From positions 1 to 63,040 of the forward strand of contig CALUXI010000009.1 of NCBI GenBank assembly GCA_944324705.1: DNA of 63,040 bases, in the 5' to 3' direction. The position numbers and the translations under genes are program-made. The notes beneath the pieces were generated by a model, which saw only the letters and a list, made by a program, of their open reading frames with translations, was not told the DNA's origin and ran no database searches. Of the stretch, positions 13,048 through 20,123 are shown piece after piece; within the stretch, counting starts at the first letter, position 1, and each line of letters starts with the position of its first letter. The stretch is from an uncultured Acholeplasmatales bacterium (GTDB taxonomy: Bacteria; Bacillota_I; Bacilli_A; Acholeplasmatales; Anaeroplasmataceae).

Positions 13048-14382
13048 TTATTCTGTCTTTTCTATAAAGTTAGAGAATTCGCCATTAAATATCATAGCAA
13101 TCCCATCACCTTCTGTTGTTTGACCACTTCTATTTTTAGCAATGATTAAATCAGCTTCCCCTTTACGGGTTGAGCTTTTATTATAATAATCATCACGATA
13201 TAAAAACATAATAATATCAGCATCTTGTTCAATAGAACCAGAATCACGTAAATCCGCCATAATTGGCCTTTTATCATCTCTTTTTTCAACTGCTCGTGAA
13301 AGTTGAGATAAGGCAACAATAGGAATATTTAATTCTAAAGCCATTAACTTTAAAGCTCTTGAAATTTTACCAATTTCTTCATTCATAGACATACCACCTT
13401 CAGATTTAATTAATTGAAGGTAGTCAATAACTACAAAATCCAAATCATCTTGTTCTTTTAATTGTCTACATACTGATTTTATCTTATTAACTGTTAAATC
13501 AGTTTCATCACTAAAATAAATATTTAAATTATTTAATCTTGTACAAGCTGTTTGAATACGAACCCATTCAGCTTCTTTTAAATAACCTCTTTTAATATTT
13601 TTTAAAGAAATTTTAGAATCAGAAGCGATCATTCTCTCTACTAATTGTTCTTGAGGCATTTCTAAAGAAAACATAGCTACCGTAGCTCTACCTTTTTTAT
13701 TCTTAGAAGCTACATTAACAACTAAATTAACCGCAAAAGCTGATTTACCCATAGCAGGTCTAGCCCCAAGTAAAATTAATTGTCCACCTTGAAAACCTAA
13801 TGTATAATTGTCTAAAGACGGAAAACCTGTTTTTAAACCAACAATATTTTCTTTTTGTTTAGATCTAGCTTCCGCATTAGCTAAAACTACTCCCGTAATA
13901 TTTTTAATATTAGTAAAAGTTCCTGTCTTTTTTCTTTTTGATAAAGCGAAGACACTAGTTTCCATATCATCAATAAAATTTTCAGTTGTCGTATTAGCTT
14001 GATAACCTTTTTCCGTTAAAGTTTGTAACAATTTTAAAGCATCACGGCGTAAACTAGCATCTTCAATAAATTTAATATAAGTTTCGGCATTACGTGTTGA
14101 ATAACCAATATCAGCAAGGGTTGAAATATATTCAAAACCACCAGCTTTAGTTAAAGTATCCTTAGACTCTAAATCACTGATTAAACTTGTTATATCAATA
14201 TTTTTCCCTTCTCGATATAAGCTTATTAGAGAGGCAAAAATGATTCTATTTCTTTGTTCATAAAAATCTCTTTCTAAAAGTCTACCTTCTACTTTATTCA
14301 AAATTGTAGGTTCTAATAAAATAGAACCAATTAGACCTTTTTCTGCCTCCACATTAGCAGGTATAGTAATATTTTGTTGCAT
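13048..14382 (-). CDS. dnaB: Replicative DNA helicase DnaB (DnaC of Bacilli)
   Basis: This is the hexameric 5'-3' helicase of the replication fork. The N-terminal DnaB domain (NVEAEKGLIGSILL onward) occupies residues 1-100, and a RecA-like core follows with Walker A (GARPAMGKSAF), MFSLEMPQEQLVERM, and Walker B (DFVVIDYLQL). The C-terminal RSGQTTEG arginine-finger region is present. I use the ATG at 14382: GAGGT lies just before it, while the longer TTG reading at 14397 overlaps the end of the gdpP-rplI gene. Its place behind rplI is the conserved Bacilli arrangement. Confidence 0.95.
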   Translation of the reverse strand: MQQNITIPANVEAEKGLIGSILLEPTILNKVEGRLLERDFYEQRNRIIFASLISLYREGKNIDITSLISDLESKDTLTKAGGFEYISTLADIGYSTRNAETYIKFIEDASLRRDALKLLQTLTEKGYQANTTTENFIDDMETSVFALSKRKKTGTFTNIKNITGVVLANAEARSKQKENIVGLKTGFPSLDNYTLGFQGGQLILLGARPAMGKSAFAVNLVVNVASKNKKGRATVAMFSLEMPQEQLVERMIASDSKISLKNIKRGYLKEAEWVRIQTACTRLNNLNIYFSDETDLTVNKIKSVCRQLKEQDDLDFVVIDYLQLIKSEGGMSMNEEIGKISRALKLMALELNIPIVALSQLSRAVEKRDDKRPIMADLRDSGSIEQDADIIMFLYRDDYYNKSSTRKGEADLIIAKNRSGQTTEGDGIAMIFNGEFSNFIEKTE

Positions 14383-14390
14383 AAGAACCT

Positions 14391-16817
14391 CTAACAACCA
14401 ACTACATTAATTTGGAAAGTAGCTTGAATATCCTTATCTAAATTAACTGTACCTTGATAAATACCAATCGCATTAATATCAGCTGGCATTTCTAGTTTTC
14501 TCTTATCTAGTCTTATACCGTTTTGAGCATCAAATTCATCAACTATTTGTTTAGATGTAACATGTCCAAATAATTTACCATCTGCACCTTGTTTGATATA
14601 AACAGTAACACTCTTAGTTTCAATTTCTTGTTTTAATTTTAATAATAAATTACGTCTATTTTCCTTATCAATAGCTTCTTGTTTCTTATTTTCTTCTAAT
14701 TGCTGTAAGTTAGCATCATTACATAATAAAGCACTACCATTGTTAATTAAGAAATTACCATATCCATTATTAACATCAATAATATCATCTTTTTTACCTT
14801 TGCCTTTAACATCTTTTAATAAAATAACTTTCATTCTCTCTTCACCTTCAAAATCATAATTACGTTTTAATATATCAAGTAACTGAGCTTTAACATCAGC
14901 TAAAGTTTTATCCTTAATTTGACATGCAGCAGCCTGTAAATGACCGCCGCCACCCATTTCTTCCATAATAATTTGAACATTGACAGTATCTAAACTTCTT
15001 GAAGATATCGCAACTTCGTTTTCTGACAAATAAGCTAAAGCAAAACTAGCATCTACCCCTTCAATAGTTAATAATCTATCAGATATCTTAGCTAAAATAG
15101 TTCTATCATCAAAAACTTTATCAATAGAAGCTATTGCGAAATGGCCTAAAACAATCTCACTTTCAACTACTGCCTCAGAAATCTTTCTCTCATCGCTATA
15201 TGAATCACGTAAGATTCTCTTAACCTTGACCATATCAGCACCATTTTCTTTAAGAGTTGAAGCAACCTCAAAAGTTCTAAAACCTGTTCGATAAGTAAAA
15301 TAATTAGTATCAACAACCATACCACAAAGCATTAAAGTAGCTTCAATAGGTTTTAATTTAGGACTAGGAGCAAACATAAACATTTCCATAATCAATTCTA
15401 CTGTTGATGAACTATAAGTTTCAACATAACTCATTTCAACATTCTTAAAGTCAGCATCACCAACACGATGATGATCAATTACTGCTACATGTAAAGCCTT
15501 GTCAATTAATGTCTTAAACATTACTAAATTAGGTGATTGTGTATCACAAACTAAAAGTAATGTATTTGAAGTTAAATAATTTAAGGCTTTAGCTTCATCT
15601 ATAACATAATCTAAAACTTCCGGTTCTTCATTGGCTAGAAGTTCATAAGCTTTTTTAGCTGTAACATCTAAATGGTCATAATCTAGAGCTATTCTAGTTG
15701 TTATACCAAAACTTTCAACCAATCTAAACGCACCTATTATAGCCCCTAAAGCATCACAATCAGCTTTATTATGGGCCATAATTAATACTTTTTCATAAGT
15801 ATCTGTCAATTCTTTTAATGAGTTAGTTTGCATTCTAACCGCAACTAAAGTATTCTTTTCTAAAGCATTAACTTGGCCACCAATATATTGGATCTTTGAA
15901 CCTTGAATATTAACTACAGCCTGATCCCCACCACGCTTTTCTGCTAATTCTACAGCATTCAAGGCAAGATCTCCTACCTCGTTAAATTTAAGATCATAGG
16001 AAGCAATACCAACGCTGATAGTTGTTTTAATATGATTGTTCTTTGATAAATCTCTAATTTTATCTAAAATAGAAAATTTATCTTCAACCATTTTTAGTAA
16101 TTCTTCTCTATCGGTAATAATTAAAATTCTATCATCATCTATACTTTGGAAAAAACAATTATATGTTTGAGCCCAATTAGAAATTTCCCCAAATATTTTA
16201 CCACTTATAGTTGTCTTATCTTGTAAGTCATAACGTTTTAAACTTTCTTCTAAGTTATCTACAACTACAATTCCAATCGCAATATTACGATTTAAATACC
16301 TAGTTTTTAACTCTGTTTCTTTAGTCGTATCAAAAAAATACAATAACCTATTTTCTTTCTTAATACTAAACTCATAAGTCCTACCGTTATCTGATAAAAT
16401 AAAACTTGATTCATCGCTTTTTAAAAAATCCAACAATTTCTCACTAATATCAGATATAGCTACATTCTTTAAACTTTTCTTTAAACATTTTTGGGCATAA
16501 TCATTAAACCACTTAATATGAAAATCATTATCATAAATAATGATACCAACTGGCAAGTTTTGAAAAGCCATATCACCAGCTGCATTAATATGATATGTAG
16601 TATCAGACCATACTTCTAACTGTTGTTTCAACTTTTTAATTGTTTTTTGTTTTAAAGTAATAGCATAAATAAAAATAACTATAACAGCTATAACTAAAGT
16701 TGAAATAGCCAATATTAAATACGTTAAATTAAGGGTTAAGTTATTTTCTTGACTATAAAAATACCATAAAACTCCCGAAGCCCCTAATGATAATAATGCA
16801 AATATAGTATAAAGCAA
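14391..16817 (-). CDS. gdpP-rplI: Fusion of GdpP (c-di-AMP phosphodiesterase) and ribosomal protein L9
   Basis: A single 808-codon frame joins two proteins that are separate neighbours in other Bacilli. Residues 1-660 are GdpP: two membrane helices (about 1-22 and 31-54), a PAS-like region, a degenerate GGDEF domain (EKRGGDQAV), then DHH/DHHA1 with MAHNKADCDALGA, VCDTQSP, VIDHHRVGD and GGGGHLQAAA. It hydrolyses c-di-AMP at the membrane. Residues 662-808 are complete L9, starting MKVILLKDVKGKGKKDD, with the L9 N-terminal domain, long linker helix and C-terminal domain; L9 alone is 147 aa, the normal size. There is no stop or frameshift at the join (GEER-MKV). The start is TTG at 16817 behind AGGTG. 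Free L9 might also be made from an internal site. Confidence 0.9.
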   Translation of the reverse strand: MLYTIFALLSLGASGVLWYFYSQENNLTLNLTYLILAISTLVIAVIVIFIYAITLKQKTIKKLKQQLEVWSDTTYHINAAGDMAFQNLPVGIIIYDNDFHIKWFNDYAQKCLKKSLKNVAISDISEKLLDFLKSDESSFILSDNGRTYEFSIKKENRLLYFFDTTKETELKTRYLNRNIAIGIVVVDNLEESLKRYDLQDKTTISGKIFGEISNWAQTYNCFFQSIDDDRILIITDREELLKMVEDKFSILDKIRDLSKNNHIKTTISVGIASYDLKFNEVGDLALNAVELAEKRGGDQAVVNIQGSKIQYIGGQVNALEKNTLVAVRMQTNSLKELTDTYEKVLIMAHNKADCDALGAIIGAFRLVESFGITTRIALDYDHLDVTAKKAYELLANEEPEVLDYVIDEAKALNYLTSNTLLLVCDTQSPNLVMFKTLIDKALHVAVIDHHRVGDADFKNVEMSYVETYSSSTVELIMEMFMFAPSPKLKPIEATLMLCGMVVDTNYFTYRTGFRTFEVASTLKENGADMVKVKRILRDSYSDERKISEAVVESEIVLGHFAIASIDKVFDDRTILAKISDRLLTIEGVDASFALAYLSENEVAISSRSLDTVNVQIIMEEMGGGGHLQAAACQIKDKTLADVKAQLLDILKRNYDFEGEERMKVILLKDVKGKGKKDDIIDVNNGYGNFLINNGSALLCNDANLQQLEENKKQEAIDKENRRNLLLKLKQEIETKSVTVYIKQGADGKLFGHVTSKQIVDEFDAQNGIRLDKRKLEMPADINAIGIYQGTVNLDKDIQATFQINVVGC
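14832..14847 (-). promoter_or_regulatory. Candidate internal ribosome site and start codon for free L9
   Basis: Within the fusion frame, AGGTG (14843-14847 on the minus strand) is followed eight bases later by ATG at 14834-14832, exactly at the first codon of L9. The spacing is ideal. This is what a separate rplI start looks like, so it may still be used, giving both fused and free L9. Confidence 0.55.
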
Positions 16818-16838
16818 TTAAATCACCTCATTTAATAA

Positions 16839-16867: not shown

Positions 16868-16892
16868 TTAAAAAGAGGTTTTTCAACCTCTT
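16866..16892 (-). terminator. Terminator behind rpsF-ssb-rpsR
   Basis: An 8-bp perfect stem AAGAGGTT/AACCTCTT (16873-16880 with 16885-16892) with a four-base loop GAAA is followed by TTTTTAATT on the minus strand, just after the rpsR stop. It separates the ribosomal operon from the gdpP unit. Confidence 0.85.
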
Positions 16893-16898
16893 ATTATA

Positions 16899-17144
16899 CT
16901 ATTCTTTTACGAATGGTAATAATGCCATATGACGTGCTCTTTTAATAGCAATTGCTAATTTTCTTTGATATTTAGCAGAAGTACCAGTAACACGACGTGG
17001 TAAAATTTTACCTCTTTCAGTAATGAATTTCTTTAATAATTCAACATCTTTAAAATCGATATGTTCAATTTTGTTCTTTGTGAAGTAACATTCTTTTTTT
17101 CTGCTGCGACGTACAAAGTCACGTTTTTCACTTTTATTTTGCAT
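16899..17144 (-). CDS. rpsR: 30S ribosomal protein S18
   Basis: At 81 aa it is the normal size for bacterial S18. Conserved features are the basic N-terminus ([15 protein letters not shown]), [22 protein letters not shown] (read in parts) and the C-terminal [14 protein letters not shown] equivalent. S18 pairs with S6 on the 30S platform; both are encoded in this operon. The ribosome site is GGAG. Confidence 0.97.
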
Positions 17145-17158
17145 AATTATTCTCCTTT

Positions 17159-17635
17159 CTAAAATGGTAAATCATCATCATCAACATTCATTGTATCAAC
17201 ATCATCACTTGAGCCATAACTTGGCTTTTGATAGGTGTTAGGAAAACTTTGTGGGCTCACAACTGAACCTTGACTAGGTTGGTTAAAGCTTGGATTAGGT
17301 TGATTCTCAATATTTTGTGTTCTCGGAGTTAAATTTTCAACTTGATCACACATTATATCAACTACATTACGCATACTACCATCTTGTGCTTGATAAGTTC
17401 TAGTTTGCAATCTACCTTCAACAGCTAACATATTACCTTTTTTAACATAACGAGAAATAAATTCAGCTTGACTTCTAAATGCTACACAATTAAAAAAGTC
17501 AGCTTGTCTATTACCTGATGCATCTCTAGTCATTCTATCAACAGCTAAAGAAAATGAAAGCATCGCAATTCCCGTAGATGAATATCTAAGTTCTGGGTCT
17601 TTTGTAATACGCCCAGTTAAAAACACCCTATTCAT
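17159..17635 (-). CDS. ssb: Single-stranded DNA-binding protein
   Basis: This 158-aa SSB has the OB fold in residues 1-105 ([49 protein letters not shown]), a flexible Gln/Pro/Ser linker, and the acidic tail DDDDLPF that recruits replication proteins. It lies between rpsF and rpsR as in most Bacilli, with 2-bp and 14-bp gaps. Confidence 0.97.
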
Positions 17636-17637
17636 GA

Positions 17638-17925
17638 TTATTCACCGTCTTTTACAACAATGTTACGAATAATGTTTTCATTATAACCAACAACACGGTT
17701 AAATTCTTCAATAGCCTTAGGTGTAGCTTCTACTAACATCCACACATAATAACCTTTACGCATTTTTTGGATTTCGTAAGCTAATTCTCTAAGACCCCAT
17801 TCTTTAGTTTCTAGAACTTTAGATTCGTTATTAGCAAATATTTTTTCAACATTAGCTACTTCATTTTTAATAACATCTTGTTCTAGATTTGAACGAAGAA
17901 TAAACATAACTTCATATTTTTTCAT
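17638..17925 (-). CDS. rpsF: 30S ribosomal protein S6
   Basis: At 95 aa it is the normal length, starting MKKYEVMFILRS with the conserved KEWGLRELAYEIQKMRKGYY segment. It is the first gene of the rpsF-ssb-rpsR operon and has a strong AAGGAGG site. The S6-S18 pair is known in several phyla to repress its own operon through an RNA structure in the leader. Confidence 0.97.
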   Translation of the reverse strand: MKKYEVMFILRSNLEQDVIKNEVANVEKIFANNESKVLETKEWGLRELAYEIQKMRKGYYVWMLVEATPKAIEEFNRVVGYNENIIRNIVVKDGE

Positions 17926-18981: not shown

Positions 18982-20123
18982 CTAATCATAAACAACCATT
19001 GCGTTATCAAAATACATATCTAATAAGTAACCACACATAATACAATCAACATATCTATTAGATAAAGTGTCTGAATGTAAAACAACATGCTCTCCAACTC
19101 TAGATTCACCACAAAGAGAACAATATACACTATGTTCTTTTCTATTACGTGATAATGAAACGTAATTATGCTCGTGTTGAGGTATAAAATCATCTAGAGA
19201 GTTATAAACATTTAAAATACCACTTGACACACAAGTACTATATAAACTTTCTTTTTTAGTAGCATTACTCATTAAATTTTCTTTAAATTCTAACCAACTA
19301 ATTGATTTATTAGCTTTCACACAAGATCCATATAATAAAGCAATAGCTCCTGTTACAATAGCAGTTGAATAGGATGTCCCAGATACATAATCATATGAAT
19401 TTACATTATTAGCAGTTGTCGTGTATATATTTATCCCCGGGGCCAATAAATCTACAGTTTCTTCATCTGTATAAAAGTCTTTTATAGCTTCATCAGATTC
19501 TAGCACCAACTACTAACAAATTATCATAATCAAATCTTTGTGGCACTGTAACATCCTTACCACTATTTTTATTATAATTACCTGCAGAACACACAATGAT
19601 TCCTGAATAATCTCTAATTGCTTCACCTAATATCGGCGATGTTGCAGCTGATGAAAAATTAGAACTTAAATTTAATAGCTAAAGCAGCATTATAAGACGA
19701 TGAAGTATAATCTGAATTTGTAATTTTTAAAGAAACTAATGAAACATCATCACATACACCAGCTATTCCAACATTATTATTTCTTTTTGCTCCAATAATG
19801 CCTGCTATTTTTGTCCCATGCCCAGAACCATCGATGGCATTATCAATAAATGGGTTATTTAATCATAGCTAAGTGTTTCATCTACTAAGCCTTTTAAATC
19901 TTCATGTTCTTTATTTATACCAGAATCAATAATACCTATTTTTAAACCTTCAGCAGAATCATTTATTATATTTCATTATCTAATCCAATATTGTCAAAAT
20001 ACCATTGATTTAAATTATATGGATCGTTTGTGTTAATCATTGTTTTTGGCGAAATTATTATCGTTCCAACATCCCTCTCCGATAAATATCCACAACTATC
20101 AAACAAACTACAATTTTTTTCAT
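18982..20123 (-). pseudogene. Subtilisin-like serine protease (S8) gene, broken by at least four frameshifts
   Basis: All three catalytic regions of a subtilase can be read on the minus strand, but in different frames: Asp in LKIGIIDSGI (about 19920-19950), His in GSGHGTKIAGI (about 19800-19830), the oxyanion-type segment IIVCSAGNY (about 19580-19600), and Ser in GTSYSTAIVTGA (about 19350-19385). Frame changes occur near 19975, 19865, 19680 and 19500. Two fit loss of one base and two fit gain of one. A signal-peptide-like MKKIVVCLIVV begins at 20123 in yet another frame. The C-terminal part after the Ser domain holds two CxxC pairs (YCSLC, CIMC). The gene would have encoded a secreted or surface protease of about 375 aa. 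Confidence 0.85.

Follow-up and report, generated by a model that had tools for sequence, protein, structure and literature searches.

In Bacillus thuringiensis, gdpP and rplI have been reported to form an operon (PMC4568413). Other Bacilli with separate gdpP and rplI have the same gene order as the locus described here, with the rplI start a few bases from the gdpP stop; in these bacteria, however, a stop codon divides the two genes, whereas the gene analyzed here reads through. Coupling between the separate genes would take the form of termination-reinitiation over short overlaps (as in PMC10666635). A read-through product with the same domain order, and hence the same fusion, is described by the NCBIfam model NF011110/PRK14538, "putative bifunctional signaling protein/50S ribosomal protein L9." This model names one bifunctional protein and is silent on an internal start, on free L9, and on the fate of the L9 tail, and a full-text search of the available papers found none that studies or discusses the GdpP-L9 fusion. 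While the fusion itself is thus already catalogued by NCBI, its probable mode of working, through an internal start, is what appears to be new.

A second system that bears comparison is clpB, for which two isoforms have been reported in Mycobacterium tuberculosis (PMC6168691). In both cases one frame would carry two starts, and the short product corresponds to the C-terminal part of the long one. However, the clpB isoforms are versions of one protein, whereas the short product of the fused gene would be a complete and unrelated ribosomal protein, L9, which, unlike the short clpB product, comes from an ancestrally separate gene.

Architecture of the fused gene

On the minus strand of the 63,040-nucleotide stretch of DNA analyzed here (the window), which comes from an uncultured Acholeplasmatales bacterium, a single uninterrupted frame of 808 codons holds a complete GdpP and a complete L9, joined at GEER-MKV with no stop in between (Table 1). 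The open reading frame (ORF) listing and Pfam confirm the original prediction on this point, and the fusion in the window is real: since the same frame is present in more than 130 genomes, a sequencing or assembly error was rejected as its cause. All Pfam matches scored above cut-off, both in the GdpP half (PAS_GdpP, 77-163; GGDEF_GdpP, 185-307; DHH, 343-500; DHHA1, 571-651) and in the L9 half (Ribosomal_L9_N, 662-707; Ribosomal_L9_C, 727-806). The whole protein matched NF011110/PRK14538 with 761.4 bits (cut-off, 707) over positions 51-833 of the 838-position profile and the L9 model TIGR00158 with 109.6 bits (cut-off, 58.6). Its L9 part comprises the two L9 domains linked by the connecting helix, with Gly13 and Gly24 present. 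A genome-wide search found no second rplI in the source genome (97.4% complete, 1.64 Mb in 55 contigs), so that the fused copy is its sole L9.

Table 1. Coordinates of the fused gene, its parts, its neighbors, and local signals in the window
Feature	Position	Strand	Basis or remark
gdpP-rplI fused ORF, 808 aa	14391..16817	(-)	TTG start; ORF listing and NF011110/PRK14538 score
GdpP part, residues 1-661	14835..16817	(-)	Pfam, invariant columns, motif and hydropathy check
Predicted membrane helices of GdpP, residues 2-60	16638..16814	(-)	Hydropathy and helices of the AlphaFold2 model
Nested rplI: L9, 147 aa	14391..14834	(-)	In-frame ATG 14834-14832 = fusion residue 662; TIGR00158
Linker, DHHA1 domain to L9 start	14841..14864	(-)	Includes low-confidence residues 657-659 of the AlphaFold2 model
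AAGGTG, proposed internal Shine-Dalgarno site for free L9	14843..14848	(-)	8 nt upstream of ATG; duplex energy -4.8
GAGGTG, Shine-Dalgarno-like site of gdpP TTG start	16825..16830	(-)	Duplex energy -6.9
Terminator-like hairpin, rpsR-gdpP gap	16873..16892	(-)	Consensus match; chance expectation about 1 in scanned region
rpsR (S18), upstream neighbor	16899..17144	(-)	ORF listing, named by sequence recognition
ssb	17159-17635	(-)	Upstream of rpsR; named by sequence recognition
rpsF (S6)	17638-17925	(-)	Upstream of rpsR; named by sequence recognition
dnaB, downstream neighbor	13048..14382	(-)	Likely ATG at 14382; Shine-Dalgarno energy -6.5

The GdpP part of the window protein comprises, in this order, two N-terminal transmembrane helices, a PAS domain, a degenerate GGDEF domain, DHH, and DHHA1, and its catalytic residues are present (H349, D353, D355, D425, D448-H449-H450, and D503). 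The DHH/DHHA1 catalytic set (HxxxDxD, D, DHHR, D, GGGH) is invariant in 27 fused proteins, and these residues are likewise intact in all 10 proteins of a separate comparison, including those from genomes with a second rplI and from family f21. A diadenylate cyclase domain was found in 17 of the 18 genomes searched; since the source genome is among them, c-di-AMP is the likely predicted substrate of the window GdpP. The eighteenth genome, G066 (f21, locus L097), yielded no diadenylate cyclase domain, while its GdpP-L9 is present with catalytic residues intact and its branch in the GdpP tree is very long.

An AlphaFold2 model built with 27 sequences reproduced both halves well (mean pLDDT, 84), including a long helix at residues 701-733 that corresponds to the L9 connecting helix, with a pTM of 0.47 that makes the relative placement of the domains unreliable. 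The pLDDT dropped below 50 at residues 657-659 only, immediately N-terminal to L9.

Distribution and origin of the fusion

The original prediction proposed comparing the gdpP-rplI junction among related genomes, and the fusion proved to be conserved there. All 60 relatives searched matched the NF011110 model, 58 of them above its cut-off, which misses true fusions sampled in families f7, f14, f17, and f22 and in genome G081. A survey of the class found the fused frame of about 800 codons in ten families (f1, f2, f3, f26, f27, f7, f14, f17, f21, and f22) and an L9 frame of about 150 codons in the remaining ones, with the proviso that it covered the best 150 matches, such that an occasional unfused member of a fused family could have escaped it. 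Named genomes with the fusion include Candidatus Phytoplasma mali, pruni, and sacchari, as well as other Acholeplasmataceae. Outside this set, a stop separates gdpP and rplI in all Lactobacillales, Bacillales (Caryophanales), and Lachnospirales checked, the one exception being a fused metagenome bin that is filed as Bacillales and matches a member of f1. Single tblastn spans hinted at further fusions in Lactobacillales and Bacillales, which were rejected upon finding the stop between the genes. Two genomes of f7, G087 and G328, had no L9 match; their genus (g78) also contains genomes with the fusion plus a separate rplI, and G087, which is 97% complete, also has no good GdpP match.

Of the 85 rows that make up a GdpP tree, 58 are fused; these occupy one side of one branch, so that a single change accounts for the fused state, and no reversion to the unfused state was seen. 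This is a quick tree, in which the place of the unfused family f5 among the first branches is uncertain. Several independent origins, hinted at by a one-base shift of the Shine-Dalgarno (SD) sequence between clades, were rejected given that one change suffices. On this sequence comparison, the GdpP-L9 fusion is ancient and belongs to a single clade that includes the Acholeplasmataceae and the phytoplasmas.

The unfused relatives suggest how such a gene could arise. Their rplI start lies between -29 and +18 nt from the gdpP stop, and the rplI SD usually lies at or inside the end of gdpP. Thus, the ancestor would already have had the start site of rplI, SD and start codon alike, at the end of its gdpP, and the loss of the one intervening stop codon would have let gdpP read through into rplI. 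The tight packing of the two genes in unfused relatives supports the original prediction that the fusion can result from loss of a single stop.

Signals at the probable internal L9 start

The junction was examined in 134 fused genes, and the start statistics come from the 130 of these that lack a second rplI. All 130 have a start codon at position 1 of L9 (ATG in 126, GTG in 3, and TTG in 1), and the three genes with GTG otherwise use this codon for only a minor share of their valines. The SD upstream of the fused L9 had a mean duplex energy of -9.1 kcal/mol (weakest, -4.5; n = 130), close to the -9.5 at 36 separate rplI genes and far from the -1.2 averaged over 2207 other in-frame ATGs of gdpP. 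Predicted mRNA structure followed the same pattern, with -2.5 kcal/mol at the fused L9 start, -2.6 at separate rplI starts, and -5.1 in other stretches of the same fused genes.

An SD within a coding sequence could merely reflect the encoded residues. Synonymous recoding of the seven upstream codons gave a mean energy of -5.9, and the real site was stronger in 115 of the 130 genes. This test was clear in f7, f14, f21, and f22 and weak in f1, f2, f3, f26, and f27 (median p, 0.24-0.46; the sampled sequences are related and not independent, which inflates the P values), where Glu-Gly residues spell much of the SD. The AAGGAG core is nevertheless read in two registers, as K/Q/E-E-E in f22, f14, and f7 and, shifted by one base, as E-G-E/D or G-G in f1, f2, f3, f21, and most of f17. 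One core read in two registers indicates that nucleotides rather than residues were kept, which favors selection acting on the nucleotide sequence.

The internal SD of the window itself is modest, about as strong as the one that precedes ssb in this cluster (-4.2), and most relatives have a stronger SD at the same position before the L9 start. In two additional phytoplasmas that have no L9 but the fused one, Ca. P. mali and the Columbia Basin potato purple top phytoplasma, the ATG is kept and the internal SD is weak (-2.8 and -1.0, respectively); these two may make free L9 without an SD, or not at all.

Genomes with a separate rplI copy

A natural control is provided by five genomes, G081 and G539 (f1) and G286, G293, and G300 (f7), in which the fusion is followed, after some 10-70 nt, by a separate rplI. 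The tree places their GdpP parts at two distinct positions, and they represent two independent lineages. Listed in the above order, the internal SD is gone from all five fused copies (-0.4, -0.4, +1.0, -2.4, and -2.4), while the separate rplI copies do have one (-8.0, -8.0, -10.3, -7.1, and -5.7), and the L9 methionine of the fused copy has been replaced by Thr or Lys in three of the five; this contrast draws on two independent duplication events. If the internal signals serve free L9, one would expect just such a loss of SD and Met beside a separate rplI.

Together, these comparisons suggest that the window gene is an in-frame nested pair whose internal start codon and SD are conserved beyond the needs of the protein, and that internal initiation in the fused gene very probably supplies free L9. 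Ribosomes initiating at the gdpP start would produce GdpP-L9, and those initiating at the internal site would produce ordinary free L9 for the ribosome. That both products are actually made, and in what ratio, is what we infer from these patterns.

The tail that has become redundant in these genomes is not decaying. Gly24, Phe89, and Gly90 are lost from it in all five, and hence in both lineages, although Gly24 is present in all 167 other aligned L9 sequences; Gly13, Asn27, Ala35, Gly86, Ile97, Gly124, and Ala138 are retained. The dN/dS ratio of the tail (NG86 with bootstrap) was 0.115 between G081 and G539 (0.06-0.19), similar to the 0.15 of the GdpP part, and 0.33 between G293 and G300 (0.20-0.51). 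The redundant tail is therefore under purifying selection, and GdpP retains a fold that lacks these invariant L9 residues.

Possible role of the L9 tail

The L9 on GdpP would serve neither to supply nor to hold ribosomes; the phosphodiesterase would instead retain it as a C-terminal domain with a fold of its own. The chance that the tail has such a role of its own is about even, given that the redundant tail stays selected and that expected stops in the linker are absent: a rough count gives about 18 stop gains in the six-codon linker at the mean rate of the protein, or 4 if the rate is set to one quarter of this, and none was seen across the tree. What the tail does for GdpP can be guessed at, with stability, dimer contacts, or regulation as candidates, while holding ribosomes is an unlikely role. 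It is tempting to speculate, at similarly balanced odds, that a second-messenger enzyme recruited a ribosomal protein, a single time and permanently, to serve as a structural or regulatory domain, that the same codons still make L9 via the nested start, and that after duplication the enzyme-bound copy shed L9 residues that are invariant elsewhere and became purely a domain of GdpP.

Alternatively, internal initiation could make free L9 and the tail of GdpP could be a functionless by-product, retained since a stop is hard to gain or would harm L9 expression. This is a variant of the preferred explanation, with which it shares the internal start, and we consider it possible though rather unlikely. 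In single-copy genes, free L9 alone accounts for the conservation of the L9 sequence, and ribosomes elongating through the L9 start could adjust how much L9 is made. However, unfused relatives tolerate a stop only a few codons away from this SD, none of the roughly 18 stop gains expected of a tolerant linker was seen, and the tail stays intact and selected in two lineages that have a separate rplI.

The original prediction went further and took the fused protein to be the L9 of the ribosome, such that ribosomes would perhaps be held at the membrane next to GdpP and c-di-AMP turnover would be coupled to translation. While this is favored by the conservation of the fusion in every sampled relative of the order, with the lack of any L9 elsewhere in the genome, and with a diadenylate cyclase that makes c-di-AMP signaling plausible, we regard it as very improbable. 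Each 50S subunit would require a membrane enzyme, and the conserved internal SD and start codon, which vanish only in the presence of a separate rplI (the two weak-SD phytoplasmas being exceptions), indicate that free L9 is also made. The L9 loop that surrounds residue 24 is part of the N domain, which binds rRNA. A tail that grips the ribosome should have kept Gly24 and the other near-invariant L9 residues, yet in both duplicated lineages the tail lost Gly24 and Gly90, among others, while under purifying selection, which argues against the tether.

Very improbable as well is that the fusion is the only translated product and a protease cuts the junction to release L9: the sole low-confidence segment of the AlphaFold2 model does sit just before L9, but the linker differs wholly in sequence between families that all keep the SD and start codon, and cleavage leaves no role for conserved start codons, GTG and TTG included, or for open mRNA structure.

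Returning to the nested start with a retained tail, current annotation lists these bacteria, phytoplasmas included, with L9 on a membrane enzyme and with no rplI of their own, which invites wrong inferences of membrane-bound ribosomes. What the comparisons point to instead is a single stretch of DNA that, in the same frame, would encode two selected proteins throughout the history of a large clade, and natural gene duplications separate the two roles, the supply of L9 and the tail of GdpP. This raises the question of what an L9-shaped tail does for a c-di-AMP phosphodiesterase.

Neighboring genes and local signals

The fused gene lies in the order rpsF, ssb, rpsR, gdpP-rplI, dnaB, as read from the ORF listing with names given by sequence recognition. 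An rplI-specific promoter within gdpP was considered and rejected, as promoter-like matches were no more common than in shuffled sequences, and an Rfam scan of the window at gathering thresholds found no known RNA element. Elsewhere in the window, a short frame (18982-19509, minus strand) has the GTSYSTAIVTGAIALLYG motif of subtilase C termini without a full protease domain and may be a gene remnant. The hairpin between rpsR and gdpP, in turn, may uncouple gdpP-rplI from the rpsF-ssb-rpsR transcript.
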